A stretch of DNA of 64,000 nucleotides from Mycolicibacterium sp. (GTDB taxonomy: Bacteria; Actinomycetota; Actinomycetes; Mycobacteriales; Mycobacteriaceae): NCBI GenBank assembly GCA_020637165.1, contig JACJWN010000003.1, positions 62,001-126,000 of the forward strand. Reading direction: 5' to 3'. The translations under genes were made by a program, and so were the position numbers. Positions 851 to 62,393 of the stretch are shown in pieces. Positions within the stretch are counted from its first letter, which is position 1. Each line of letters opens with the position of its first letter. The notes under the pieces were generated by a model that worked only from the letters and a program-made list of their open reading frames with translations, had not been told where the DNA came from and ran no database searches.

Positions 851-866
851 CCGGGAACTTTCCCGG
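851..866. promoter_or_regulatory. Perfect 16-bp palindrome between divergent genes
   Basis: CCGGGAACTTTCCCGG has perfect 7-bp arms around CT. It lies between the divergent copper-type membrane genes, 51 bases from one start and 77 from the other, where an operator would be expected. Each arm also contains GGGAA, which resembles the -35 element of mycobacterial ECF sigma factor promoters. Its function is inferred. Confidence 0.4.
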
Positions 867-942
867 CCACGGCCGCGACCAATGCTGGTGACCAATGCCG
901 GTACCGACCTGTTCGCTCAGCTACCCGCCCAGGAGTGACGAG

Positions 943-1578
943 ATGATTCATGACCTAGCGCTGCGCTGGCTCGTCACCGCGCTGTTCGTTTTCAGCGCCG
1001 CGGTGTGTGTTCGGGCCATATTTGCCGGCCGACACTCGGCGACGAACCTGGTCAGCCACCTTCTGCACGCTCTGATGGCGATCGCGATGGCTGTGATGGC
1101 CTGGCCTCGGGGTGCCGACCTGCCGACCCGGGCGCCGATGGTCTTCTTCGCGCTGGCCGCGCTGTGGTTCGCGGTGATCACCTTCAAAACTAGCGGACAC
1201 CGGGTGGCCAACGGCTACCACACGATCATGATGCTGGCGATGGCGTGGATGTACGCGGCCATGGGCGGCCTGCCGCTTCCGAAGGCGGCTGACCATGACA
1301 TGCCCGCGATGCCGTCGATGGACGCGGCCCCGGCGCATTCCGGGCACGCGGGGCATACCGGGCACGGCTCGCATTCCACCGGCCACGCCACCGCCGACGC
1401 CGCAGTCTGGCCGGGGGTGCTGAACTGGGCGTTCACCATCGGCTTCGCGGTGGCCGCGGTGTTCTGGCTCTACCGCTTCTTCGCCGGGCGTCCCGGCTCC
1501 GAGAACCGCGGTCTGGGCGTGCTGTGCCAGTTCGCCATGGCGACCGGAATGGCCATCATGTTCGGCGTGATGCTCTAA
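943..1578 (+). CDS. DUF5134-like membrane protein with His/Met-rich loop
   Basis: A 211-residue membrane protein with about five hydrophobic segments, resembling the DUF5134 family of actinobacteria. I chose the ATG at 943 because AGGAG sits seven bases upstream; an in-frame ATG at 895 has no such site. Between the last two membrane segments (residues about 118-149) lies a loop packed with His and Met, including HDMPAMPSM and HSGHAGHTGHGSHSTGH. This is the kind of sequence that binds copper ions. It stands head to head with the CopD-like gene and next to an anti-sigma-like gene, so a role in copper handling is a reasonable inference, although the family has no proven function that I know of. 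Confidence 0.7.
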   Translation: MIHDLALRWLVTALFVFSAAVCVRAIFAGRHSATNLVSHLLHALMAIAMAVMAWPRGADLPTRAPMVFFALAALWFAVITFKTSGHRVANGYHTIMMLAMAWMYAAMGGLPLPKAADHDMPAMPSMDAAPAHSGHAGHTGHGSHSTGHATADAAVWPGVLNWAFTIGFAVAAVFWLYRFFAGRPGSENRGLGVLCQFAMATGMAIMFGVML

Positions 1579-2916: not shown

Positions 2917-3035
2917 TTGAACTTCGGCGTCAGTATTTCGTGGTGAGCGGAACTTTTTCCGCCGGGCCGCGACTAACACCCTGACGAACCGTGTGCATGA
3001 GAAGCACGTAACGGGCCAAGGATGGGAGACACGTT

Positions 3036-4880
3036 GTGACCGCTGGAGTTCTGATTGGCAGGGTCGGCGCCTTGGCCGTCGCGCTGGGCGTCGGACTGGG
3101 GTACGCCGCTCCGATTGCCCTGGCCGATGCCGACGACTCCACGTCCTCTTCGCCACGGCAGTCCTCGGCGGGATCACGCGACGCCCGTACCGGGGCTTCC
3201 GGGAGCGCGAACCGGTCACAGCGGGGCAGCAAGTCGCGGGCGGCAGCCGAGGCCGCCTCGCCACAGGCCCGAGGTTCCGCCCCGGCCGCGGCCGCGGCCC
3301 CCGATCGTGACGAGACGATCCCTGTCCCTGTCACTGCCCCGGTCGAGGCGGCCGCCGGCGTTCACTCCTCCGGCCCGTCCCGGGTGCCGGCCGCGATCGC
3401 GGGACCCTCAAGCGACACGGTGTCCGCAGCCGCGTCTATGCCGGTCGGCACCGGCACCGGCATAGCGGCCGTTGCCGCCCCGATCGTGAACACTACGAGC
3501 CCGGCGGCGATCGTCAGCAGTCCCAGCGCCGCGGCCGTTGGTGCCAACCCGATCGCGGACCTGATCCGGACGTTCATCGGTGACGGCACCGCCGACAACC
3601 CGAACGGCGGGATCCTGTTCGGCAACGGCTACAGCTACACGGCTTTCGACGACACCTACTGCACCGCCGCGGCGGCCTGCAACGGCGGCAATGGCGGCCT
3701 GATCGGCAACGGCGGCAACGGCTATAACGGCGGCGCCGGGGGTGCGGCCGGCTGGTTCGGCAACGGCGGTGCCGGCGGCAACGCAATCACTGCCGGCGGT
3801 GCCGGCGGCAACGGCGGGCGCGGCGGCATCTTGTTCGGTAACGGTGGCGACGGTGGCGACGGCGCGGCGGCCCTGGGGATGGCAAGCGGGGGAGCCGGCG
3901 GCCGCGGCGGCATGGCGGGAATGTTGACGACCCTGGGCAGTATGCGGCTTCCCACCAGTCTCTACGGCAACGGTGGGAACGGGGGTGCAGGTGGCAACTC
4001 CGTCATGGGCACCGCGGGTGCCGGCGGCAGCGGTGGAATGGCCGCGATCATCGGCGCCGGGGGCACCGGTGGGAACGGCGGCGACATCACCGGAATGGGT
4101 GGCGGCACCGCCGGCAACGGCGGACGTGGCGGCATGGCCGGCTGGCTGACCGGCGACGGCGGTGACGGCGGCGACGGCGGAAATGTCAACGGGGTCAACG
4201 GTGGTACGGCCGGCAACGGCGGCAACGGCGCCATGGGGATGCTGCTGTTCAGCCCCGGCGGCAACGGCGGCGACGGCGGCAGCTTCGGCGAGGGCGTCAC
4301 GGTCGGCTCGGTCACCGGCGGAACCGGCGGTAACGGGGGCACCGGAGCATGGCTGTTCGGCGGCTCGGGCGGCGCCGGGGGGAACGGCGGTGCCGGCCTG
4401 AGGATGGGCAACGGTGGTGACGGCGGCCGCGGCGGCAACGGCGTCGGCATGACCAACGGCGGTACGGGCGGCAACGGTGGTGAGGCCGGCAGCATGAACG
4501 CCATCGGCGGTGCCGGTGGGCGCGGCGGTATCGGCGGCGTGATGGGCAACGGCGGGGATGGGGGTGTCGGCGGAGCCTCCGAATCCGGTTCCGGTGGCAA
4601 CGGCGGGGACGGCGGGGATTCGATCTTCATCGGCAACGCCGGGAACGGCGGCAACGCCGGCGAAGGAGTTGGGCCCGCCGACGGCGGGAACGGAGGCAAC
4701 GCCACCCCGATCGTGGGCAACGGCGGTAACGGCGGCAACGGAGCCGGTGTCGGTGGTTGCGGCGGCACCGGCGGAATGGGCGGGATGTTGTTCAGCGAGA
4801 TGGGCACCAGCGGATCCCCGAGTTGCGGCGGCGGCATGATGGGCGGAGGAATGCACGGTATGGCGGCATCTCAGCCATGA
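3036..4880 (+). CDS. Secreted PGRS-like (GGNGG-repeat) protein without a PE domain
   Basis: A 614-residue protein. A signal peptide ([14 protein letters not shown] core, probable cut after ALADA near residue 32) is followed by about 100 residues of Ser/Arg/Pro/Ala linker. A short non-repetitive part contains [19 protein letters not shown]. From about residue 215 onward the protein is made of Gly-Gly-Asn-Gly-Gly units (GNGGNGG, GGAGGNGG), like the PGRS part of PE_PGRS proteins. It lacks the N-terminal PE domain that carries those proteins through type VII secretion and has an ordinary signal peptide instead. The extreme C-terminus is Met/His-rich ([17 protein letters not shown]). The start is GTG with GGGAG upstream. 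Likely cell-envelope or secreted; function unknown. Confidence 0.85.
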
Positions 4881-4968: not shown

Positions 4969-6108
4969 ATGAATATCGCGGCGATGGTAGGTATGCCCGG
5001 CGAGGCGCTGCGCGTACCACGGTCACAGTGGCGCCAGTCGTTGATCGGTGCGGTGGGCGAGGCGTTTCGTCACCACTATGACAACAATGACTTCTACCGG
5101 GCGCAGTGTGAGGGGGTGTCACCGGCCGACATCACCGGTTACGAAGACCTGCACAAGATCCCGTTGCTGCCGGTCGGGATGTTCAAACAGGCCGGCGCGC
5201 ATGTGCTGTTGACCGCCGGCCTGGCGGAGATCGAGACCGAGATCCGCTCGACCGGTACCGGTGGAGTGCCGTCGGTGGCCCGACGCGACCCGCTGACTAC
5301 AACGCGGGCTTCTGTCGGCATCCTGGGTGGCTACCGGGACTTCTTCGGGATCTCTAAAGGCGCCGGAATGTTCCTGTGCCCGTCGACGGCCGAGGTTCCC
5401 GAGATGGGCATGGTCAAGGTGTTCAATCTGATGACCGCGATGCTCGACGACCACCGATATCTGGTGCGCGGCTACTCCTTTGACGCCCAGGAAGCGTTGG
5501 ATTACCTGCGCGGCTGGGAGGGTCGGATGACCCGGCACATCATCGGGCCGCCGTTCATCGTGGCCCGGTTCATGCGGTTCCTCGAACTGGAGTCGATTCC
5601 GCTGACCCTCGACCCGGAGTCGATGATCATCATGCTGGGTGGCTGGAAGCAGTACACCGGGCGTTCGATCAGCCGTGACGAGTTCAACGCCAAGGCGCAG
5701 CGGCTCCTCGGTGTGGACCCTTCGAGAATCCGGGACATGTACGGGATGATCGAGTCCAACATGCTCGCGATCGAATGCGAGCACCACCGCAAGCATGTGC
5801 CGCCGTGGTGCTACGTATCGATCCGCGATATCACCGACCCGGCGGTGGAACTCGCTCCGGGCAAGACCGGCGGTATCGCGATCCTGGACGCCCTGAACAC
5901 CGCCTATCCCGGTTTCCTGCTCTCCGATGACGTCGGGGAGGTTGACGAGAGTGACTGCCCGTGTGGCCGTACCGGTCAGACCGTGCGGTTCCGGCGGCGC
6001 CGGCAGGGTGCCGAATTAGGTTGTTGTGCAGTCAGTATCGAGAAATACCTGGATGAGAATCAGCTCGTGGCCGAGTGCGAGCTCGTCGACGCGGCCGGAA
6101 GGCCATGA
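4969..6108 (+). CDS. LuxE-like acyl-protein synthetase
   Basis: A 379-residue member of the LuxE/acyl-protein synthetase group within the adenylate-forming ligases. LuxE itself uses ATP to activate a fatty acid, holds it on a Cys near its C-terminus and passes it to a partner. Seen here: a phosphate-binding loop STGTGG (residues 94-99), a Cys motif (CPCGRTGQ) and a Cys pair in GAELGCCAVS (residues 352-353) close to the C-terminus, where LuxE carries its acyl-Cys. I chose the ATG at 4969 because GGGAG precedes it by six bases; the ATG at 4939 would add ten residues. The stop overlaps the next start (ATGA), so it heads a translationally coupled run. There is no luciferase or LuxC nearby, so a bioluminescence role is excluded. 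Confidence 0.8.
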   Translation: MNIAAMVGMPGEALRVPRSQWRQSLIGAVGEAFRHHYDNNDFYRAQCEGVSPADITGYEDLHKIPLLPVGMFKQAGAHVLLTAGLAEIETEIRSTGTGGVPSVARRDPLTTTRASVGILGGYRDFFGISKGAGMFLCPSTAEVPEMGMVKVFNLMTAMLDDHRYLVRGYSFDAQEALDYLRGWEGRMTRHIIGPPFIVARFMRFLELESIPLTLDPESMIIMLGGWKQYTGRSISRDEFNAKAQRLLGVDPSRIRDMYGMIESNMLAIECEHHRKHVPPWCYVSIRDITDPAVELAPGKTGGIAILDALNTAYPGFLLSDDVGEVDESDCPCGRTGQTVRFRRRRQGAELGCCAVSIEKYLDENQLVAECELVDAAGRP

Positions 6109-6509
6109 CGATGCCGCGGTTCAGCGCAGAGGTGATCGACCACTTCACCAACCCGCGAAGCTGCGGTCGGCTCGATGCCCCCGATGTCGCGGCTTTCGTC
6201 GGAAATCCGGTGTGCGGCGACCAGATTCTGCTCACCGCCCGGGTCTGTGACGGCGCCGTCGCCGAGGTCGCCTTCGAGGCGTTCGGCTGTTCGGCATCGC
6301 TGGCGGTCGCCTCGATACTGACCGAGCGGTTGTCGGGCATGTCCTTGGCCGGCCTGGCCGCTCTGGACGAGGACCGTATCGTCGACTGGTCCGGTGGACT
6401 GGCTCCCGACCAGCGCCACGTTGCCACCCTGGGGGCCGATGTCGCCCATCGGCTCGCGCGGAACTACCGCGACGGCGTCATCGACGATTCCCCGGTGAGC
6501 GCCGGCTGA
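6105..6509 (+). CDS. NifU/IscU-like scaffold protein with one ligand missing
   Basis: A 134-residue protein related to the NifU N-terminal/IscU/SufU scaffold on which Fe-S clusters are built from sulfur supplied by a cysteine desulfurase. Conserved parts: FTNPRSCG, NPVCGDQ (Cys37, Asp39) and FGCSAS (Cys62). The third Cys of the family, normally right after a His, is replaced: the sequence reads QRHVATLG, so His105 is kept but position 106 is Val. The ATG overlaps the LuxE-like stop codon. One base separates its stop from the cysteine desulfurase gene. Because a cluster ligand is lost, it may work as a sulfur carrier or with a different ligand set; this is inference. Confidence 0.85.
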   Translation: MTMPRFSAEVIDHFTNPRSCGRLDAPDVAAFVGNPVCGDQILLTARVCDGAVAEVAFEAFGCSASLAVASILTERLSGMSLAGLAALDEDRIVDWSGGLAPDQRHVATLGADVAHRLARNYRDGVIDDSPVSAG

Positions 6510-6510
6510 G

Positions 6511-7668
6511 ATGTATCCGCAACCGGTGTATCTGGATTATGCGGCGACCGCCCCGCTGCTCCCTGCCGCCGCAGCGGCGATGGCGGTCGGTCAGGGTCTG
6601 GTCGGCAACCCCTCCAGCGATCACGAGGCGGGGCGGGTGGCCGCTGACGCTCTCGGGGCCGCCCGCGGATCCATCGCGCGTCTGCTCGGCGTGGCCCCGG
6701 ATGAAGTCGTATTGACCTCGGGTGGCAGCGAATCCGACACCGCGGCGCTATGGGGAACGTTCGCCGCCCGCGGGTTCTCCGGGCATCTGGTCACCACCGC
6801 CATCGAGCATTCCGCGGTTCTGGAGAACGCGCGTGCGCTTGCCGAACTCGGCGTCGAGCTGACCGTCGTCGATCCGGGACCCTCCGGCCACATCGACGCA
6901 TCCGATATCGCCGCGGCGATGCGTCCACAGACCGTGCTGGTCTCGGTCATGCACGCCAACAACGAGACCGGCGCGATCCAGCCCGTCGGCGAGATCGCCG
7001 AGATCGCCGATCGTGCCGGGGTGGCATTCCACACCGACGCGGTGCACACGGCGGGGAAACTCGATCTCGCCGCGGTGGGGGCGACGATGATCTCGGTGTC
7101 GGCGCACAAGTTCGGCGGCCCGCGGGGGATCGGGGCGCTCGCGGTGCGTGCCGGGCACCGGATCGTGCCGCTCATCCGCGGCGGCTCGCAGGAAAGGGGA
7201 TTGCGGGCCGGAACCGAGAACCTGCCCGCGGCGATGGGGATGGCCACCGCCGCCGAAACCTGCCTGGAGCGGATCAGCCCCGACTACCGGCGGGGGATAC
7301 GCACACTGCGCGAGAGGCTGGTCTCCGGCCTGCTCGAGGTGGGCGGAGTTGAGGCGAATGTCTCCGGGCCGGTCGTGGACGAGACGGTCAGCCTCCGGTT
7401 TCGGGGGATCCGCGGCGACACGCTCGCCGACACTCTCGATCTGCACGGCATCTACGTCTCCACCGGTTCGGCCTGCCATGCCGGAGACGAGACCGTTTCT
7501 CATGTCCTGACCGCCCAAGGCCTGAGCGAGAAGGACGCCCGGTCCGCGGTGCGCTTCTCACTTGGTCCCGGGGTCAGCTCCGCGGACGTCGATCGGGTGG
7601 TCGCGGTGACCGCCTCGGCCGTCGGCAGGCTGCGCCGCATGGCCGGTGCCGTGGGGGCGGATCGTTGA
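6511..7668 (+). CDS. Cysteine desulfurase (NifS/IscS-like)
   Basis: A 385-residue PLP enzyme of class V aminotransferase fold that takes sulfur from L-cysteine as an enzyme persulfide. Visible landmarks: YLDYAATAP at the N-terminus, IEHSAVLE (His100), MHANNETGAIQP, the PLP lysine Lys200 in SAHKFGGPRG, and the catalytic Cys322 in STGSACHAG. All residues needed for activity are present. It directly follows the NifU-like gene and is followed, with overlap, by the permease gene, so its sulfur is probably meant for a product of this cluster rather than for general Fe-S assembly, which mycobacteria normally serve with other genes. That dedicated role is inferred from position only. Confidence 0.92.
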   Translation: MYPQPVYLDYAATAPLLPAAAAAMAVGQGLVGNPSSDHEAGRVAADALGAARGSIARLLGVAPDEVVLTSGGSESDTAALWGTFAARGFSGHLVTTAIEHSAVLENARALAELGVELTVVDPGPSGHIDASDIAAAMRPQTVLVSVMHANNETGAIQPVGEIAEIADRAGVAFHTDAVHTAGKLDLAAVGATMISVSAHKFGGPRGIGALAVRAGHRIVPLIRGGSQERGLRAGTENLPAAMGMATAAETCLERISPDYRRGIRTLRERLVSGLLEVGGVEANVSGPVVDETVSLRFRGIRGDTLADTLDLHGIYVSTGSACHAGDETVSHVLTAQGLSEKDARSAVRFSLGPGVSSADVDRVVAVTASAVGRLRRMAGAVGADR

Positions 7669-8768
7669 TCGCGGTCAAGAATCTGCTGGCCGAGAAGACG
7701 CGCCTGGTGCTCTCGGTGCTCGGGGTTGCTCTCGCCGTGCTGCTGATGCTGGTGATGGCAGGACTGTTCGTGGGGACGACACGCCAGGTCACCACCTACA
7801 TCGACCATTCCCGCAACGCCGTTTGGGTGATGCAGCCCGGGGTCTCTCAGATGTTCAAGGCGGTGTCGTGGCTGCCTGCGGACGGCCGCGAGCGATTGTT
7901 GGGGCTTCCCGAGGTGGCCACCGCTGAGCCGATTCTCGGACTGCCGTCGGATTTCGTCCATAACGGCTCGCACACCGCTTACTTCGTCGTCGGCTACGAC
8001 CTGGCGAGCGGGGTCGGGGGACCGTGGTCGCTATCCGAGGGGCGCAACGTCGGCCAAAGCGGGGAAGTGGTGCTCGACCGCATCCTGGCCAAGAAGAACG
8101 GGATTCGCCTCGGGGACACCGTCGAGATCGTGGATGAGGATTTCACCGTCGTCGGCCTGTCCGACCAGACCGCCGCCGCGACGAACTACTACACATTCAT
8201 CTCGCTGCCGGATGCGGCCCGCCTGCTGCGGGCGGACAATCGCGTGTCCTACTTCCTGGTTCAGCCCAATCCGGGCTACAGCGAGGAGCAACTGGCCGCG
8301 GCGATCCAGGCCGGCGTTCCCGGCATGGATGCGCTCACCTCGCCGAGGTTCGCCGAGAACAGCCGCGACATCATCGTGAAGATGATCGGGCGGCCGCTCA
8401 AGACGATGATCGCCATCGCCGCCCTGGTGGGAGTCGTCCTGGTGGGTCTGACGGTCTGGGCTTTGACCTCCGAGCAGATGGCCGATTTCGGGGTGTTGCG
8501 AGCGCTGGGGGTGCGCCCGAATCAGTTGTGGCGCGCTGTGCTCGGCCAGGCCGGGGTCATCGCGGCGGTGGGGTATCTGATCGGGGCGGCCATCGCTTAC
8601 TCCGCCCAACTTCTACTCGGCGACCGGATGGGTGATGTCACCATCGCGATCACGCCTACCATGCTGGCCGTCGTTGCCATGGGCACCGCGCTCATGGCCG
8701 GCCTCGGATCCATTCTGCCCGCACGACGCGTGTCGAAGATCGACCCTGCGATCGCGTTCCGGCGCTGA
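7665..8768 (+). CDS. ABC transporter permease, MacB/FtsX type (copy 1)
   Basis: A 367-residue permease with one N-terminal membrane helix (RLVLSVLGVALAVLLMLVMA), a large extracytoplasmic domain of about 230 residues and three C-terminal helices, the layout of MacB/FtsX/DevC permeases. The start is TTG, overlapping the desulfurase stop (TTGA). This choice is supported by copy 2 at 10403, which also begins with TTG and the same Leu-Ile-x-Ala-Val-Lys-Asn-Leu reading. Such permeases usually move lipids, peptides or lipoproteins out of the membrane using an ATPase as a mechanical lever. The loop between helices carries GDTVEIVDEDFTVVGL, typical of the family. The ATPase gene follows 18 bases later. 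Confidence 0.9.
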   Translation: MIAVKNLLAEKTRLVLSVLGVALAVLLMLVMAGLFVGTTRQVTTYIDHSRNAVWVMQPGVSQMFKAVSWLPADGRERLLGLPEVATAEPILGLPSDFVHNGSHTAYFVVGYDLASGVGGPWSLSEGRNVGQSGEVVLDRILAKKNGIRLGDTVEIVDEDFTVVGLSDQTAAATNYYTFISLPDAARLLRADNRVSYFLVQPNPGYSEEQLAAAIQAGVPGMDALTSPRFAENSRDIIVKMIGRPLKTMIAIAALVGVVLVGLTVWALTSEQMADFGVLRALGVRPNQLWRAVLGQAGVIAAVGYLIGAAIAYSAQLLLGDRMGDVTIAITPTMLAVVAMGTALMAGLGSILPARRVSKIDPAIAFRR

Positions 8769-8786
8769 AACTCGGAGAGGAATGCC

Positions 8787-9548
8787 ATGCGTTGCCCGAT
8801 CTGTCATCACGACGCATCAGCGCCGCGATGCACCAACTGCAACCGGCCACTACTGGACGAGGCGCCCGACCCGGTGCTGGCACTGGCCGGTGTCACCCAC
8901 CATTACGGGACCGGCGAGGCCGCGGTGCAAGCACTGCAGGGCATCAGCCTGTCGGTCGACCGCGGTGAGGTGGTGCTGATGGTGGGTCCCTCGGGGGGCG
9001 GCAAGACCACCGCGCTGCTGGTGATGGGCCTTCTGCTGACCCCGGATTCCGGCACGGTGCGGATCGGCGGCCGCGACGTCGGTACCCTGGCCGAACGGGA
9101 GCGCGCCGGCATGCGGCTGCTGCGGCTGGGCTTTCTTTTCCAGGACTACAACCTGCTCAACTCGCTGACCAGTGCCGAGAACGTGGCCGTTCCGCTGCGG
9201 TATGCCGGTGTCCGCAAGTCGGCTGCGCTGGCCCGGGCCACCGAACTGCTGGACTCTCTCGGCCTTGCGCACCGGGCCGGCCACCGGCCGACGGAGCTCT
9301 CCGGGGGGGAGAAGCAACGGGTCGCTACAGCGCGCGCGCTGGCAATGGGTCCCGACCTGATTCTTGCCGACGAACCCACCGCCAACCTCGACTCGGTCAC
9401 CGGCCACAAGGTCAGCGAACAACTAGCGTCGGCGGCGCGCGCCCACAACGCGGCGGTGCTCATCGTCACCCACGATTCGCGTCTGGACGATATCGCCGAC
9501 CGGGTGGTTCATCTGGAGGACGGCCGAATCCTCGAGGCGGCGGTCTGA
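8787..9548 (+). CDS. ABC transporter ATPase with N-terminal zinc ribbon
   Basis: A 253-residue LolD/MacB-type ATPase. Motifs: Walker A GPSGGGKTT (residues 67-75), Q-loop FLFQDYN, signature LSGGEKQR (171-178), Walker B LILADEPTANLD and the His of VTHD. Unusually, the first 20 residues form a small zinc ribbon: Cys3-x2-Cys6 and Cys15-x2-Cys18 in MRCPICHHDASAPRCTNCNR. The start has GGAGAGG upstream at normal spacing, so the ribbon is really translated. It would energise the two paralogous permeases flanking it. The ribbon could hold zinc or dock a partner protein; the latter is speculation. Confidence 0.92.
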   Translation: MRCPICHHDASAPRCTNCNRPLLDEAPDPVLALAGVTHHYGTGEAAVQALQGISLSVDRGEVVLMVGPSGGGKTTALLVMGLLLTPDSGTVRIGGRDVGTLAERERAGMRLLRLGFLFQDYNLLNSLTSAENVAVPLRYAGVRKSAALARATELLDSLGLAHRAGHRPTELSGGEKQRVATARALAMGPDLILADEPTANLDSVTGHKVSEQLASAARAHNAAVLIVTHDSRLDDIADRVVHLEDGRILEAAV

Positions 9549-9554
9549 TCGGTG

Positions 9555-10283
9555 TCAGTTCTCCAGTGCACCCGCGGGTACGCGGGTCGTGCGGATCGCC
9601 CCGACCCGCTTGTTCATCGCCTTGCGCATGACGTTGCCGTACAGCCAGCCTTTGATCCCCCGGGCGTTCACGCCGTGTGCCCGGTAGAAGGCGTCGGGAT
9701 CGTCGAAGACCCCGAAGTCCCGGTCGATACCCGATGCCTGGATGAGGGTGTCGGTTCCGGCCCAATCGACCGGGGGATCGCCGATATCCGGGGTTCCGAC
9801 GCCATAGCCCAGGAACGGCCCGGTGTGCTGACCGGTTCGGTTACGAACGCCGTCGAGGTAGCCGCCGTCGAGGATGACACCCTCCAGGCCCACCCACCGG
9901 TCGCCGAGGCGGACCTCGGCCCAGGTGTGGATGATGCTGCGCGGGGCGAACCAGTACAGCGGGGCGACCATGACGCCGTGCTGAAGTCGTTTGTCGATGG
10001 TCGCACCGTGCAGTCGGCAGCCGATCCCACTGGCTCGCAGCAGCGCCATCAACAAGGTGGTTTTGGTATTGCACTGGCCGTACCCGTCGGCCAGCACGGC
10101 CGAGGCCGCAAGATCGTCGGAGGCGTTGTAGCCGAACGGGATTCCTTCCCGGACGAAGTCGTAGACCGCGCCGATCCGCTCCTCTTCCGGGAGTCGGGAC
10201 CAGCCTTGCCGGTCGACGATTCCGGCGATCCGCTGATCGCCGAAATCCAGCAGGGCAGTGGGTTTGAGGTAACGGTCCTCCAT
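9555..10283 (-). CDS. Transglutaminase-like protein inside the acyl/sulfur cluster
   Basis: A 242-residue protein with a transglutaminase-like (papain-fold) core: Cys71 in GYGQCNTKTTLL, His119 in IIHTWAEVRLGDRW, and an acidic third residue in GLEGVILD (Glu134 or Asp139). The class includes peptidases and amide-forming enzymes, and the sequence does not decide between them. No signal peptide is seen, so it is probably cytoplasmic. I start at the ATG at 10283; the longer frame to 10403 would run over the promoter region of the divergent permease. It lies on the opposite strand between the ATPase (convergent, six-base gap) and the second permease (divergent), so it was probably inserted in, or kept with, this cluster for a linked role. 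Confidence 0.75.
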   Translation of the reverse strand: MEDRYLKPTALLDFGDQRIAGIVDRQGWSRLPEEERIGAVYDFVREGIPFGYNASDDLAASAVLADGYGQCNTKTTLLMALLRASGIGCRLHGATIDKRLQHGVMVAPLYWFAPRSIIHTWAEVRLGDRWVGLEGVILDGGYLDGVRNRTGQHTGPFLGYGVGTPDIGDPPVDWAGTDTLIQASGIDRDFGVFDDPDAFYRAHGVNARGIKGWLYGNVMRKAMNKRVGAIRTTRVPAGALEN

Positions 10284-10350
10284 CTCCCGAAGCCTACCGA
10301 CATTGATTCCCCGACTGCCGGAGAGTTCGACCGGTCGTGTCTCGACGCAG

Positions 10351-10372
10351 TGCAGTGCAACGACGCACTGCA
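10351..10372. promoter_or_regulatory. Perfect inverted repeat upstream of second permease
   Basis: TGCAGTGC and GCACTGCA are perfect 8-bp arms separated by AACGAC, 31 bases before the TTG start of the second permease and 68 bases from the divergent transglutaminase-like start. The position and symmetry suggest a regulator binding site shared by the two divergent genes. No regulator gene is seen in the cluster. Confidence 0.45.
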
Positions 10373-10402
10373 ACACAACGATTTTCAGGAGGTCGGGATC
10401 CA

Positions 10403-11509
10403 TTGATTGTCGCCGTCAAGAACCTTGCCGTCGAACGCACCCGCTTGGTGCTCTCGGTGCTCGGCGTCGGCTTCGCGGTGCTTTTGGTGCTGGTGATGGC
10501 GGGGATCTTCGTCGGCACCACGCGTCAGGTCACCACCTACATCGACCACTCCCGCAACGCCGTCTGGGCCGTTCAGCCCGGGGTGTCGCAGATGTTTCGG
10601 GCGGTATCGTGGCTGCCCGCCGACACCCCGAGCCAACTGACGGCGCTGCCGGAGGTGGCCTCGGCCGACCCGATCCTGGGTCAGCCCTCGGACTTCATCC
10701 ACAAGGGCGAGCAGACCGCCTATTTCGTCCTGGGCTACGACCCGGCCACCGGCGTGGGGGGACCCTGGCAGTTGTCATCGGGGCGCGACATCAGTGGCCC
10801 GGGCGAGGTGGTGCTCGACCGTGTGCTGGCCGACAAGAACGATATCGGACTCGGCGACACCGTCCAGATCATCGACGGTGACTTCACCGTGGTGGGGCTG
10901 TCCAATCAGACCGCCGCGCTGGGGAACTTCTACGCCTTCGTCTCGCTGCCCGAGGCCGCGCGACTGTTGCGGGCGGGAAATCGGGTGTCCTACGTCCTGG
11001 TCCAGCCCGCGCCTGGCTACACCCCCGAACAGACCGCAGCCGCAATCCGTGACCGGGTACCCGGGACGGACGCGATGACGTCAGCGCAGTTCGCCGACAA
11101 TAGCCGCGACATCATCATCTCGATGATCGGCCGCCCACTGAAGGCGATGATCGCCATCGCCACCCTGGTCGGCGTCGCCCTGATCGGGTTGACCGTATTG
11201 GCCTCCACCAACGAACAGATGGCCGACTTCGGCGTCCTTCGGGCCGTGGGAGTTCGCCCGGCCCAGTTGCTGCGCGCCGTGGCCGGGCAGGCCGCACTCA
11301 TCGCCGCGCTGGGATATCTGGTGGGCGCCGCGCTGGCCTATGCGTTGCAGTTCCTCATCCGCGACCGGCTCGGCGACGTGACCATCGCGGTGACCCCCGG
11401 GATGCTGGGGTTGATGGCGGTGGCCACCGCCGTCATGGCCGCCCTCGGATCGCTGGTGCCGTTGCTCCGGGTGACCCGGGTCGATCCCGCGACGGCGTTT
11501 CGCCGATGA
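10403..11509 (+). CDS. ABC transporter permease, MacB/FtsX type (copy 2)
   Basis: A 368-residue paralogue of the permease at 7665, aligning along its whole length with the same four-helix layout. Blocks such as FVGTTRQVTTYIDHSRNAVW, NSRDIII and EQMADFGVLRA are identical or nearly so. The start is TTG with AGGAGG ten bases upstream; an ATG-initiated frame from 10337 would run through the inverted repeat and is rejected. The two copies could form a heterodimer around the ATPase encoded between them, or serve as alternatives. Its stop overlaps the ACP start (ATGA), tying export to acyl activation. Confidence 0.9.
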   Translation: MIVAVKNLAVERTRLVLSVLGVGFAVLLVLVMAGIFVGTTRQVTTYIDHSRNAVWAVQPGVSQMFRAVSWLPADTPSQLTALPEVASADPILGQPSDFIHKGEQTAYFVLGYDPATGVGGPWQLSSGRDISGPGEVVLDRVLADKNDIGLGDTVQIIDGDFTVVGLSNQTAALGNFYAFVSLPEAARLLRAGNRVSYVLVQPAPGYTPEQTAAAIRDRVPGTDAMTSAQFADNSRDIIISMIGRPLKAMIAIATLVGVALIGLTVLASTNEQMADFGVLRAVGVRPAQLLRAVAGQAALIAALGYLVGAALAYALQFLIRDRLGDVTIAVTPGMLGLMAVATAVMAALGSLVPLLRVTRVDPATAFRR

Positions 11510-11820
11510 GCCCGGGTCAGGATCGGCCGGCGTTGCCCGAACCAGCCGACGTCGTCTCGGCGATCCGCACCGCGCTGGTCAAACTGTTGCCCGCCGAAGA
11601 CCTCGCCCAGGTGGACCTCGACTCGCTCGATATCGCGACGCCGCTGCTGAGTCTGCCCGTCGACTCGGCGGTCCTGATGGCCATGATGACCGAACTCGAG
11701 GACACCTTCACCGTATTCATAGAGGAGGAGGCGGCGTTCGGGTTCGAGTCGGTGGGTGACGTGGCGGACTACATCCGGAATCGGATCACGGCGCGGGCGG
11801 ACCGGATCGACGGCACATGA
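11506..11820 (+). CDS. Acyl carrier protein
   Basis: A 104-residue acidic protein with the carrier-protein helix pattern. The likely phosphopantetheine attachment site is the Ser in SLPVDSAVLMAMM, read as the usual Asp-Ser-[hydrophobic] motif. Overlaps on both sides (ATGA with the permease before it and with the ligase after it) indicate coupled translation. The natural reading is that the following FAAL loads a fatty acid onto this carrier. A stand-alone ACP next to a FAAL is typical of mycobacterial lipid and lipopeptide pathways; no polyketide or peptide synthetase is present here. Confidence 0.82.
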   Translation: MSPGQDRPALPEPADVVSAIRTALVKLLPAEDLAQVDLDSLDIATPLLSLPVDSAVLMAMMTELEDTFTVFIEEEAAFGFESVGDVADYIRNRITARADRIDGT

Positions 11821-13529
11821 CCCCCTTCTCCGAGGAAGTCCTGGCTCATGTGCGCGCCAATGCCCCCGCACTGGCGGCCGGCGTGCTGGACTATTGCGGC
11901 TTGCTGGACGAGTGCGGCACCCAGTTCGACTTCTTCGACAGCCGCGGGCACCTGGCCACCGTGCCGGGCCCCGAGTTCGCCGATAAGGCCCGGGCCAGGG
12001 CGGGCGCGCTTGCCGCACGCGGTGTGGTTGCCGGCGACCGGATCCTCATGGTGGCCAACAACACCGAGGCATACCTCACCACGCTGGTCGGGGCGCTGCT
12101 TCTCGGCGCGGTTCCCTGCGCGGTCGCACCCCCTCCGGCGCCGTCCCGGTCAGACTCCGCCGGGGTCCGGCACCTGCGGGCGGCGATCAAGGTCCTCGGC
12201 CCCAAACTCGTGGTGGTTCCGGCGGCCGCGGCGGTGGCTGTGCCCGATGACGCTGGCGCTGTGCCCGATGACGCTGGCGCTGTGTCTGATGCCGTTCTGC
12301 GTTACGAAGACCTCTCCGGCGGGCGAGGACGGCCGCTGCCGCCACTGCCGCCCGCCGGTCCCCACGACATCCACCACATCCAGCTCACGTCGGGCTCCAC
12401 CTCTGAGCCCAAGGCGGTGCTGCTGACACATCGCAACGTCGCGCACAACCTCGGCCTGCTCGCCTACTCCATGGCTGTGCGGCCCGGCGGCGACCGCATG
12501 TTCAGCTGGCTACCCCTCTACCACGATATGGGACTCGTCATGGTGCTGGGCGGTTTGTTCTACGGAGCTCCGGTCGCGCTGATGAGTCCCTTGGGCTTCC
12601 TACGCGACCCGCTGTCGTGGGCGCGGCATATGACCAGCCACCGGTCTACGGTTACCGCCGGGCCGACGTTCGCCTACCGAGCCGTCACCGAGGCGTTGCG
12701 GCGCTCCGCTGCCGGCGGCGGGGACATCGACCTGAGCGCATTGCGGCACGCCTTCGTCGGAGCCGAGCCGATCGGGTATCGGACGCTGCGCGACTTCGCC
12801 GAGAGCTTCGGCCCGCTGGGCCTGAGCCCGGATGCCCTCGTCCCGTCCTACGGGATGGCCGAGTCGGTGCTGGCCACCACGTTGGCCACCCGGTCCGCGC
12901 CCGCCGGACCGGGCGACTTCGGTCGGGTGAGATGTCTGAGGGCCGATGCCGGTGATGCGCCGCTGGTCTCCTGCGGCCCTCCGATAGAGGGCATGCGGAT
13001 AGCGATCGTCGACTCCGGCGGATCGGAGGTGAGCCCCGGGAGAGTGGGCGACATCCGGATCAGCGGCTACTCGCTGATGAGCGGATATCAGAACGCCGAC
13101 GGCACCGTGGCTGCACCGCCGGGGGGTTGGCACGACACCGGTGACCGCGGGTTGCTCTGCGACGGAGAGCTGTTCGTCGCCGGGCGAAGCAAAGAGATGC
13201 TGATCATCCGCGGCCGCAACCTGCCGCCCTACGATGTCGAATGCGCGATCGGAGATATCGCCGAGGTGGGGCAGGGCAATGCCGTGGTGTTCTCGGTATC
13301 CGGCGGTAACAGGGGTGTCGAGCGCACTGTGGCCGTCGTCGGGACGGTCGCCGCCGACGACGGGAAGAGCACGAGCCTGCGCGCTCAGGTGGCTGCAGCG
13401 GTGCGCGGGGTCTTCGGGTTCACGCTCGATGACGTGGTCCTCGTGCCGCGCAGGGCCATCCCGCGAACCACCAGCGGGAAGATCCAACGCGTCAAGGTCA
13501 GGGAGCTGTACCTGTCCGGCGGCTGGTAG
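11817..13529 (+). CDS. Fatty-acyl-AMP ligase (FAAL, FadD family)
   Basis: A 570-residue adenylate-forming enzyme. Motifs: the phosphate loop LTSGSTSEPKAVLLTHRN, WLPLYHDMGLV (characteristic of FAALs), a YGMAES region, HDTGDRGLL, and the C-terminal TSGKIQRVKVREL with its catalytic Lys. FAALs make acyl-AMP and hand the acyl group to a carrier protein rather than to CoA; the neighbouring ACP fits that. A 21-bp unit is tandemly repeated in frame near residue 145, in what should be a surface loop. Last gene of the cluster; ATGA overlap with the ACP gene. Confidence 0.9.
   Translation: MTPFSEEVLAHVRANAPALAAGVLDYCGLLDECGTQFDFFDSRGHLATVPGPEFADKARARAGALAARGVVAGDRILMVANNTEAYLTTLVGALLLGAVPCAVAPPPAPSRSDSAGVRHLRAAIKVLGPKLVVVPAAAAVAVPDDAGAVPDDAGAVSDAVLRYEDLSGGRGRPLPPLPPAGPHDIHHIQLTSGSTSEPKAVLLTHRNVAHNLGLLAYSMAVRPGGDRMFSWLPLYHDMGLVMVLGGLFYGAPVALMSPLGFLRDPLSWARHMTSHRSTVTAGPTFAYRAVTEALRRSAAGGGDIDLSALRHAFVGAEPIGYRTLRDFAESFGPLGLSPDALVPSYGMAESVLATTLATRSAPAGPGDFGRVRCLRADAGDAPLVSCGPPIEGMRIAIVDSGGSEVSPGRVGDIRISGYSLMSGYQNADGTVAAPPGGWHDTGDRGLLCDGELFVAGRSKEMLIIRGRNLPPYDVECAIGDIAEVGQGNAVVFSVSGGNRGVERTVAVVGTVAADDGKSTSLRAQVAAAVRGVFGFTLDDVVLVPRRAIPRTTSGKIQRVKVRELYLSGGW
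12243..12284 (+). repeat. Two tandem 21-bp units inside the FAAL gene
   Basis: CCCGATGACGCTGGCGCTGT followed by G is repeated exactly once head to tail, adding PDDAGAV twice; a decayed third unit (SDAV) follows. The unit is a multiple of three, so copy-number change would lengthen the loop without breaking the frame. Confidence 0.85.
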
Positions 13530-14286: not shown

Positions 14287-16944
14287 ATGACGATGACCAC
14301 CGCCGAAGGAGACCGGCTCGAGGAGGTCAAGGCCGGCATCGCCGATTGGCGCCGCTGGGGTACCTATCTCAGCGAGCGGGCCTGGGGAACGGTTCGCGAA
14401 GACTACAGCGCCGACGGTGATGCCTGGACCTATTTTCCCTTCGAACACGCCCACAGCCGTGCCTACCGCTGGAGCGAGGACGCCCTGGCCGGATGGTGTG
14501 ACCGCGACCAGACCGTCTGCATGGGAGTCGCGTTGTGGAACGGATGCGATCCGATCCTCAAGGAACGTCCTTTCGGGCTGACCAATGAGCAGGGCAACCA
14601 TGGCGAGGACGTCAAGGAGTACTGGTTCTACACCGACAACTTGCCCACCCATGCCTTCGCGTCGATGGTCTACAAGTATCCCCAGGTGCCCTTCCCCTAT
14701 GTCGACCTGCTCGCGACGAATCGCAACCGTGGTCAGGACGTCGGCGAGTACGAACTGTTCGACGCGCTGCGTGACGAGTGGTTGCAGCAGCGCTATTTCG
14801 ACGTCGGCGTCGAGTACGCCAAGGCGACCCCGGAGGACGTGTACTGCCGCATCGCGGTGACCAATCGCGGGCCCGATGCGGCACCCATCCACGTCCTACC
14901 GCAACTGTGGTACCGCAACACCTGGTCGTGGAACCCGGGGGAGCCTGCACCGCGGATCACCAAATGCGCAGCGGCTTCCGCCCGGACCTCCCATCCCGTG
15001 CTCGGTGAGCGCTGGTACTCGGTCACCTCCTCCACAGGTGAGGAGCCCGCGTTGCTGTTCTGCGAGAACGAAACCAACCGCGATCGGGTTTTCGGGGCGC
15101 CGAACACCTCGGCGACCGTCAAGGACGGCATCAACGACTTTCTGGTGCACGGCGATCGGGACGCCGTCGACACCTCATCGGGCAGCAAGATGGCCGCCCT
15201 TGTGGCGGCTACCCTGCAGCCCGGCGAAACCCTCACGGTGACAGTCCGATTCGCTTCCGCCGAACTCGGACGACCGTTCGATGACGCCGAGCAGGTACTG
15301 GCGATCCGCAAAGCCGAAGCCGACGAGTTTTACCGGGCCGTGGCGGCTGACGATCTGACCGAGGACGAACGGTTGGTGCAAAGGCAGGCGCTGGCCGGGC
15401 TGTTGTGGTCCAAGCAGTTCTACAACTACCGCGTCCGACGTTGGCTCAAGGGCGACTCGGGGCAGCCGCCGCCCCCGGACACGCGCTGGAGCGGCCGCAA
15501 CAGCGACTGGCAGCACTTCGCCGTCACCGATGTGATCTTGATGCCCGATGCCTGGGAGTACCCGTGGTTCGCGGCATGGGACCTGGCGTTCCACTGCGTG
15601 GCGATGGCGCTGATCGACCCGGAGTTCGCCAAGGAGCAGATCCTGGTCCTGCAGCAGTCCACGGCGCAACATCCGCACGGACAGATACCCGCTTACGAAT
15701 GGTCCTTCGGGGACACCAACCCGCCGGTGCTCGCCTGGGCCGCATGGCAGGTCTACCAACTGGACCGACGGCACTCCGGGGCGGGCGACCGGGATTTCCT
15801 GGCCCGGATCTACCGCTCGGCCACGCTGAACGCGATGTGGTGGCTCAACCAGAAGGACAGCTCCGATCGGGGGGTGTTCGGCGGCGGATTCCTCGGCATG
15901 GACAACATCGGTGTCTTCGACCGGGACCAGCCGTTGCCCACCGGGGGAGAACTGGCCCAGGTGGACGGAACGGCGTGGATGGCCGCGCTGATCTTCCATC
16001 TGCTGGAGATGACCATCGAGTTGTCCCGGTACGAGCCGAACTACCTGTTCATGTTCGGCCGGTGGCTGTGGGACGCCTGGCTGGTCGCCAACGCCCTGGA
16101 GAAGGGCAGTGGCCGGGTCAGCTTCTGGGACGACGACACCGGCTTCTACCACGATGTGATCGAAAACCCCACCGGCACAAACAGTTCCCTGCGGGTGTTC
16201 TCTATCCAGTCCATCGTGCCGCTGTTCGCGGCCATCGCGATCCCGACCACGTCCGTCGAGGCGCTGGAGACGATCAACCGATGCCTGGACGACCTCTCCG
16301 AGGCCTACGAACACACCGATGCCGACGTCCGGCTGCGACTGGCCGGCGGAGACGGGTCGCACTTCATGATCGCGATCGTGCACCCCGACCGGCTCTCAGC
16401 CATGCTGGATCGCCTGCTGGACCCCGCGCAGTTCCTCTCCGATCACGGGATTCGGTCACTGTCCCGATTCCACCTCGAGCACCCGTACACCTATCGGACG
16501 AACGGGCGGGAGTACGCGGTCAGCTACCAGCCGGCCGAGTCCGACAGCCGGATGTTCGGTGGAAACTCCAATTGGCGCGGTCCGGTCTGGCTGCCGATCA
16601 ACGTGTTGTTGGTCCAGGCGCTGGATTCATACGCCCGATTCCTCGGTGGCACCTTCACCGTCGCCGACCCCGCCGACTCGGACCGGAGAGTCGACCTGGC
16701 GACGGTGGCCGACGATCTGGCGCGTCGGCTCACCGGACTGCTGGTGCGCGACGGCAGCGGTCGGCGCGCCGTGCACGGTGACAACGAGTACTTTCAGACC
16801 GACCCGAACTGGAGGGACCTCGTACCGTTCTACGAGTACTTCGACGGCGACACCGGGCGGGGTCTGGGAGCCAGCCACCAGACCGGCTGGACCGCGATGG
16901 TGGCACTTCTGCTGCAGTTCCGGGGCAAGCTGCGATTCGACTGA
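14287..16944 (+). CDS. GH63-type glucosidase
   Basis: An 885-residue cytoplasmic protein (no signal peptide) resembling the bacterial members of the glycoside hydrolase 63 family. The N-terminal 200 residues include [10 protein letters not shown]-like text ([19 protein letters not shown]). The C-terminal (alpha/alpha)6 half contains [48 protein letters not shown] and [14 protein letters not shown]. These match the glucosidase/mannosylglycerate-hydrolase-like group, with the general acid Asp expected in the [10 protein letters not shown] block. The natural substrate cannot be read from the sequence; glucosylglycerate, mannosylglycerate or trimmed glucans are candidates. GAAGGGG precedes the ATG. 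It stands alone between a divergent lipoprotein and a convergent secreted protein. Confidence 0.8.
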
Positions 16945-61961: not shown

Positions 61962-62393
61962 ATGCGGGTGCTGGTCCAGCGCGTCACCTCGGCCGCGGTG
62001 CGGGTGGACGGCAGTGTCGTCGGCGCCGTGCGGCCGGATACCCAGGGCTTGCTCGCGCTGGTCGGTGTGACCCACGGGGATGACCCCGGCGTCGCCCGCC
62101 GGATGGCCGAAAAGCTCTGGCAGCTCAGGATTCTCGACAACGAGAAGTCCGCCTCCGACATCGGCGCTCCGATCCTGGTGGTGAGCCAGTTCACGCTCTA
62201 TGCCAATACCGTCAAGGGCCGGCGACCGTCCTGGAATGCGGCCGCGCCGGCCGCGGTGGCCGAGCCCCTGGTCGAACGCTTCGCCGAGGCGCTGCGCGCA
62301 CTGGGCGCGGTGGTCGAGACCGGGGTGTTCGGCGCGCACATGCAGGTGGAACTCGTCAACGACGGCCCGGTGACGGTGCTGCTGGAGCTGTGA
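61962..62393 (+). CDS. dtd: D-aminoacyl-tRNA deacylase
   Basis: A 143-residue enzyme that removes D-amino acids wrongly attached to tRNA. The family signatures are present: [17 protein letters not shown] at the N-terminus, the [17 protein letters not shown] block, and [15 protein letters not shown] at the C-terminus with the Gly-Pro pair that rejects L-amino acids. It is a dimeric cytoplasmic enzyme. Four bases downstream of aldehyde dehydrogenase. Confidence 0.96.

Follow-up and report, generated by a model that had tools for sequence, protein, structure and literature searches.

Layout of the gene block

Between positions 4969 and 13529 of a 64,000-nucleotide stretch of Mycolicibacterium sp. 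DNA (hereafter the window; positions 62,001 to 126,000 of contig JACJWN010000003.1, assembly GCA_020637165.1), genes for a LuxE-type acyl ligase, a NifU-like protein, a NifS-type cysteine desulfurase, an ATP-binding cassette (ABC) transporter, an acyl carrier protein (ACP), and a fatty acyl-AMP ligase (FAAL) lie in one block. The window is part of a 3.85-Mb genome whose named close relatives are Mycobacterium and Mycobacteroides. Open reading frames, GC content by codon position, and family matches agreed on eight plus-strand genes, in the order LuxE, NifU-like, NifS, permease 1, ABC ATPase, permease 2, ACP, and FAAL, and on one transglutaminase-like gene on the minus strand:

4969-6108, plus strand: LuxE-type acyl ligase with C-terminal Gly-Cys-Cys (PF04443, 3.5e-41; alignment to PDB 7xc6 chain E)
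6105-6509, plus strand: NifU-like protein with Val for the third scaffold Cys (PF01592, 2.6e-25)
6511-7668, plus strand: NifS-type cysteine desulfurase, active-site Cys region retained (Aminotran_5, 5.9e-57)
7665-8768, plus strand: MacB/FtsX-type ABC permease 1 (PF12704, MacB_PCD; PF02687, FtsX)
8787-9548, plus strand: ABC ATPase, DevA/MacB/LolD-like by family matches, with a Cys-rich N-terminus
9555-10403, minus strand: transglutaminase-like gene (PF01841, 1.2e-14), in the same position in related two-permease loci
about 10403-11509, plus strand: MacB/FtsX-type ABC permease 2 (PF12704, PF02687; start placed by aligning relatives)
11506-11820, plus strand: ACP (PF00550, PP-binding, 1.2e-7; Asp-Ser site seen in the alignment)
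11817-13529, plus strand: FAAL (PF00501, AMP-binding, 4.6e-54; NCBIfam FAAL models under cut-off)

The original prediction for this stretch had counted seven genes on the same strand, which has to be corrected to eight. Its family assignments were recovered by Pfam, NCBIfam, and PDB matches, and its transglutaminase-like gene on the opposite strand and its mostly overlapping gene ends were found as described, the ends of most genes overlapping or almost touching.

Several proteins of the block resemble curated families without reaching their cut-offs. The window LuxE scored 141.8 bits against PF04443 (cut-off 24.9), which is well within the family, and remained below the LuxE equivalog model NF052244 (134.2 versus 550 bits). 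NifS was the top NCBIfam model for the desulfurase, at a score under the model cut-off. The closest PDB match of the FAAL was 3pbk, a fatty acyl-adenylate ligase, which places it in the ANL fold with FAALs nearest. The transporter is comparable to the DevBCA, MacB, and LolCDE exporters, as its ATPase is nearest to the DevA subfamily model and its permeases carry MacB and FtsX domains, but here, too, the window scores lie under the curated cut-offs. The N-terminus of the ATPase (window 8787-8870) reads CPIC...CTNC and is zinc ribbon-like; an alternative start at 8874 would exclude this stretch. After the block follows a gene for an 885-residue glycoside hydrolase (GH63/MGH1-like; 14287-16944), which clustered with no gene of the compared loci.

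Recurrence of the gene set and the LuxE cysteine pair

When 297 sampled genomes of the genus were screened for the LuxE family, 28 gave a match; by BLAST, 20 of these encoded a protein close to the LuxE of the window (at least about 57% identical), and the other eight had a distant relative or none. In 17 of the 297 genomes (17 of the 20 close-relative carriers), LuxE, NifU, and NifS are grouped on the same strand; in one of them (G029), a peroxiredoxin gene separates NifU from NifS. The remaining three carriers (G023, G249, and G031) are without intact NifU or NifS. ACP and FAAL genes follow downstream in ten of the 17, two lack them, and in five the contig ends too early. Protein distances among six of the cluster proteins correlate at 0.915-0.988 (13-14 genomes), a value that shared vertical descent alone would also raise.

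Gene order and accessory genes vary. Seven genomes, defined as the Mycobacteroides type by their common gene order, have one permease each, and in three of the seven, a flavin monooxygenase (FMO) gene directly follows FAAL. A permease, an ATPase, and a 1-Cys peroxiredoxin gene stand upstream of LuxE in M. persicum (locus L048, which shares its contig with L068) and in G105; genes of the 1-Cys type were found within or heading the operon in three loci (L039, 10872-11528; L048, 9013-9675; L050, 8767-9420). Just past the operon of G105 (L050, 14286-15018) lies a CMD-like gene, together with one that, by reading, resembles the metal or sulfur sensors of the CsoR/FrmR family. Decayed operons were also seen: LuxE with fragments of NifU and FAAL in M. 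simulans (L069), and LuxE with NifS in M. montefiorense (L072) and in G031 (L051).

In wider samples, the LuxE profile (E 1e-20) was found in four of 396 genomes of the phylum and three of 397 of the order, the window's genome and G029 being counted in both. A scan of a species-genome collection yielded 23 loci. In a metagenome-assembled genome of the Kineosporiaceae (L070), a LuxE 64% identical to that of the window is followed by NifU, NifS, permease, and ATPase, all on one strand with ACP and FAAL, and between ATPase and ACP lie a U32-family gene, a gene without Pfam match, and an acyl-CoA dehydrogenase gene. In a plasmid collection, 14 records of Priestia, which belongs to another phylum, contained LuxE (43-47% identity). 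On the two plasmids examined, the order is CMD, FAAL, FMO, ACP, LuxE, NifU, NifS, and DinB, so that the operon ends with a CMD (AhpD-like) gene on one side and a DinB gene on the other; ABC genes are absent from both, and on one of the two, the FAAL gene is split in two. A scan of viral contigs with the LuxE alignment found no relative. The gene set recurs in two phyla with differing gene orders, and the genes of the block belong together as a unit. Whether the LuxE-NifU-NifS trio also occurs elsewhere without the ABC, ACP, and FAAL genes, as the original prediction had asked, received a mixed answer: Priestia has FAAL and ACP without ABC genes, and G029 and G105 have ABC genes without FAAL and ACP. 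Because of these loci, the trio is regarded as the constant core, and FAAL/ACP and the ABC genes as usual but separable partners.

The C-terminus of LuxE distinguishes this core from other members of the family. In an alignment to the LuxE chain (E) of PDB 7xc6, the second Cys of the window's Gly-Cys-Cys matches the C-terminal Cys of that chain, which we take to be the acyl acceptor. For the LuxE relatives, the C-terminal motif was read and the fetched stretch was checked for NifU, NifS, and LuxC. All 27 intact LuxE genes linked to NifU/NifS (the window and L071 included) end in Gly-Cys-Cys, whereas all 27 readable unlinked genes have a single Cys that follows Gly, Ser, Thr, Asn, or Asp. A LuxC-like match was found near 22 of the 27 unlinked genes (two of which were the source of the LuxC queries), but none in the fetched stretches of the NifS-linked loci. 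Several unlinked stretches extend only ∼1.5 kb past LuxE, and a missing NifS therefore means missing within the stretch. L071 was grouped as linked because its Cys-Cys was read in another frame past a run of N. Five loci stand outside both groups: L027 (no match), L100 (gene cut short), L069 (Cys-Cys, but a NifU fragment only and no NifS), and L051 and L072 (LuxE without C-terminal motif, NifS present, NifU absent).

The pattern does not simply follow relatedness, because the more distant LuxE of Priestia (44%, with NifS) has the Cys pair, whereas the nearer one of Arthrobacter (L073; 55%, among NRPS-type [nonribosomal peptide synthetase] genes, without NifS) has one Cys. As the pair tracks NifU/NifS and single-Cys LuxE proteins are mostly found near LuxC, sulfur may replace hydride as the acceptor of the LuxE-held acyl group. 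The extra Cys would then receive sulfane sulfur, and the acyl group would be captured there. Compared with the lux operons and the LuxE-LuxC operons of acyl reduction, the window block shares a LuxE-family ligase with a conserved C-terminal Cys, but differs by its NifU/NifS genes and the adjacent second Cys. LuxC, LuxD, and luciferase were not recognized among the ten window proteins scanned, nor was an NRPS among the block proteins, in line with the original prediction, which had noted the lack of luciferase, fatty-acyl reductase, and peptide synthetase. A structure prediction of LuxE from the alignment gave a poor model (mean pLDDT, the predicted local distance difference test score, 42.2) and was not used.

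The single-Cys LuxE proteins of L073 (5407-11140, Arthrobacter sp. CAU 1506) and of L085 and L086 (G304) are 54-55% identical to that of the window, and their genes adjoin ornithine-cyclodeaminase-type, oxygenase-type, and NRPS genes, a set partly duplicated in L085. They may represent another natural-product use of LuxE.

The scaffold protein, too, deviates in part from its model. Of the IscU site residues, the window's NifU-like protein retains Cys, Asp, Cys, and His, but the third scaffold Cys is Val in all 17 mycobacterial NifU-like proteins, and also in Kineosporiaceae. As Priestia NifU retains all three scaffold Cys, loss of the third one was rejected as a chemical requirement. The block thus has the desulfurase and N-terminal scaffold families in common with the IscS/IscU and NifS/NifU systems of iron-sulfur (Fe-S) assembly, but its actinobacterial members are without the third scaffold Cys, and their genes are linked to LuxE. 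At the thresholds used, the window's genome encodes one other NifU-like and one other NifS-like protein elsewhere.

Promoter-like motif and metal context

Alignment of the upstream regions of the seven Mycobacteroides-type operons revealed a conserved GGGAACTTTTCC...CGAC element; together with the window, these regions defined a promoter-like motif. Two copies lie upstream of the block:

854-879, plus strand: promoter-like motif GGAACTT-N-CGAC before the DUF5134 gene, 41 bp ahead of its start at 895
895-1578, plus strand: DUF5134 membrane protein with a His/Met-rich stretch (PF17197, 3.9e-37), belonging to the neighboring metal block and not to the operon
2949-2973, plus strand: promoter-like motif GGAACTT-N-CGAC, putative operon promoter, 87 bp ahead of the start at 3036
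3036-4880, plus strand: PGRS-like glycine-rich gene between the motif and LuxE, with same-place relatives in several related loci

The PGRS-like gene gave no match in a Pfam search; because it is situated between the motif at 2949 and LuxE, it may be the first gene of the operon transcript. Directly upstream of that motif lies a DUF4395 membrane protein gene (2431-2916), which also has same-place relatives in several related loci.

Of 21 regions upstream of operons (together 5.07 kb), 13 contain the motif in its strict form (GGAACYT-N14-17-CGAC); the limits of these regions had been chosen by hand after the sites were already visible. First-order shuffled sequence contained four matches per 1.71 Mb, and all fetched comparison loci together 0.027 per strand-kb. 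The 13 sites correspond to 13 of the 18 non-decayed mycobacterial operons and are located ahead of LuxE (seven, Mycobacteroides type), the PGRS-like gene (five), or the first permease (one, M. persicum). A copy ahead of permease 2 is present in L056, L060, and L075. In L142-L144, permease 2 is the sole remnant after the motif, joined in L144 by ACP and FAAL.

Upstream of the operon, the window's genome has genes for a CtaG-like protein, the DUF5134 protein, a zf-HC2 (anti-sigma-like) protein, and, beyond the limits of the window, a P-type ATPase bearing a heavy-metal-associated domain; by resemblance, this ATPase is presumably specific for copper. Of the 15 motif sites in this genome, three lie in one stretch of 7 kb, where they precede the starts of the metal ATPase, DUF5134, and PGRS-LuxE by 80, 41, and 87 bp, respectively. 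In some genomes lacking the operon, the metal block is instead adjoined by an NRPS chalkophore cluster (L147-L150 by NRPS match; the genes were read in L148 and L149). The beginnings of 19 out of 20 chalkophore operons carry a looser form, GGAAC-N16-19-CGWC, ahead of a PPE-type or TauD-type gene; the 20 stretches contain 39 same-strand matches overall. According to published accounts, SigC of M. tuberculosis transcribes ctpB and ppe1-nrp (PMC7924339, PMC9147137), with near-identical elements upstream of both (PMC7924339), and these genes are tied to copper starvation (PMC9147137, PMC9600254). By analogy, the motif may be a SigC promoter element.

The block resembles the diisonitrile chalkophore cluster (ppe1-nrp, Rv0096-Rv0101) in its FAAL-type ligase, its separate ACP, and its promoter-like motif, and the latter cluster sits beside CtaG/DUF5134 in relatives as the operon does here. 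In contrast, NRPS, TauD-type, and FcoT-type genes are missing from the block, which instead has sulfur-transfer genes, LuxE, and an ABC transporter. Nrp (E 1e-250) matched in 64 of the 297 genomes, but not in the window's. It was present in all seven Mycobacteroides-type genomes and in none of ten other genomes with an intact operon, the latter being weak evidence, because the base rate is 22% and several of the ten are incomplete; of the genomes with decayed operons, G023 and G249 have it and G031 does not. Mutual exclusion of the operon and the nrp cluster was discarded as a rule, as both are present in the seven Mycobacteroides-type genomes.

Proposed pathway and its alternatives

Taken together, the genes are tentatively read as a conserved operon for making and exporting a fatty-acyl sulfur metabolite, which in mycobacteria would most likely serve copper acquisition. 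FAAL would adenylate a fatty acid and load it onto the ACP. The LuxE-type ligase would take or re-activate the acyl group and keep it on the conserved C-terminal Cys. NifS, probably with the NifU-like protein, would draw sulfur from cysteine onto the neighboring LuxE Cys, where it would capture the acyl group as thiocarboxylate or acyl persulfide; with a LuxC partner, an aldehyde would result. In actinobacteria, the MacB-type ABC transporter would export the product. In mycobacteria, the operon would be driven by a promoter of the extracytoplasmic function (ECF) type, common to the metal-ATPase gene and the diisonitrile chalkophore operon and active in copper starvation. Chemistry, product, sigma factor, and copper role are all proposed here from sequence comparison. 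The original prediction had likewise combined an activated acyl group, sulfur from cysteine, and export. This is still the best reading found, and it stands in part: the Cys-Cys ending of LuxE and the lack of a LuxC gene provide it with a concrete mechanism, and its view that the genes belong together held, but it had not included the copper context, the motif, the FMO and peroxiredoxin genes present in some loci, or the missing third Cys of the actinobacterial NifU-like protein.

A more specific version holds that LuxE-NifU-NifS is an undescribed sulfur-insertion module, in which the fatty acyl group is converted by a LuxE ligase with two adjacent cysteines to either a thiocarboxylic acid or an acyl persulfide, and that the exported mycobacterial product is a second, sulfur-based chalkophore, co-controlled with the diisonitrile one and carried either without nrp (none of ten) or beside it (all seven of the Mycobacteroides type). 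This must be considered possible rather than probable. Sulfur ligands for copper or other metals are familiar from compounds produced by other enzymes: pyridine-2,6-dithiocarboxylic acid is a thiocarboxylate metallophore, and methanobactin and fluopsin C are sulfur-bearing copper chelators.

A number of observations weigh against the proposed pathway or its link to copper. The Cys-pair comparison covers 54 genes, many of them close kin. G029 and G105, both complete genomes, keep the trio and the ABC genes but have no adjoining ACP or FAAL gene, nor any FAAL relative of more than 36% identity anywhere in the genome; their acyl group must come from elsewhere, or the loci are eroding. The motif was not found upstream of five of the 18 mycobacterial operons (L039, L050, L058, L059, and L060), nor upstream of the Kineosporiaceae, Priestia, and decayed M. 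simulans loci. Only ten loci test it afresh, because the seven Mycobacteroides regions and the window defined it, and only five of these ten are positive. Its 15 sites in the window's genome compare with 14 in a reversed control, so that their number is not above chance. In a comparison of 20 loci, a strict-form site lies before DUF5134 in five of 18 cases, before the metal ATPase in three of 15, and before CtaG in none of 20. A SigC consensus of the form SSSAAT-N16-21-CGTSSS had no match in the upstream regions tried, that of the operon included. The metal block is present with or without the operon, and no metal genes, and hence no copper context, appear among the annotated neighbors shown for the two Priestia plasmids.

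The gaps in the motif's distribution and the lack of metal genes in Priestia are also what favors a first alternative, in which the sulfur-to-acyl chemistry is the same but the product is an antibiotic, a redox lipid, a signal, or an envelope component, the motif is part of a wider stress regulon of the ECF type, and the position beside the metal genes is incidental. The peroxiredoxin genes of L039, L048, and L050, together with the CMD and FMO genes, suggest redox chemistry, which would suit such a product. That the motif is common to the chalkophore operons and, within the window's genome, to DUF5134 and the metal ATPase argues for copper instead, and we regard this alternative as somewhat unlikely.

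NifS and the NifU-like protein could also furnish one of the pathway's enzymes with Fe-S clusters, in which case the product would gain no sulfur. Building Fe-S clusters is what these families do, Priestia NifU has all three Cys, and the Kineosporiaceae locus contains a gene of the U32 family, which includes Fe-S members. Yet no Fe-S enzyme was recognized in the window block or, by annotation, in the Priestia operon, the third NifU Cys is replaced by Val throughout the 17 mycobacterial proteins, and the LuxE Cys pair accompanies NifS, which makes mere cluster supply unlikely. Detoxification of copper or oxidants, rather than copper acquisition, would agree with the ABC export genes, the peroxiredoxin genes of three loci, and the heavy-metal ATPase adjoining the operon; it is nevertheless improbable, because the chalkophore operon, tied to copper starvation in PMC9600254, has the motif as well. 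That two unrelated gene groups merely adjoin, as the occasional loss of FAAL/ACP or ABC genes might suggest, is scarcely credible, given their joint recurrence in two phyla in differing orders and the separate copy of the same motif at the permease 2 end in L056, L060, and L075.

No description of this gene combination or of its Cys-pair signature was found in searches of open-access literature directed at it, which does not prove its absence from print. Each of the enzyme families is already known, as are FAAL/ACP-dependent copper metallophores, but their combination has a real chance of representing a new class of pathway. If the fatty-acyl sulfur reading is true, LuxE enzymes would have a further role as ligases that insert sulfur, and a cysteine desulfurase would supply a pathway of lipids; several mycobacteria, Mycobacteroides chelonae and M. 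franklinii among them, would own a copper-acquisition route beyond the diisonitrile one. Both the Cys-Cys and the promoter-like motif offer simple handles for testing, and the related core genes on Priestia plasmids would make the chemistry accessible in an easy laboratory organism.

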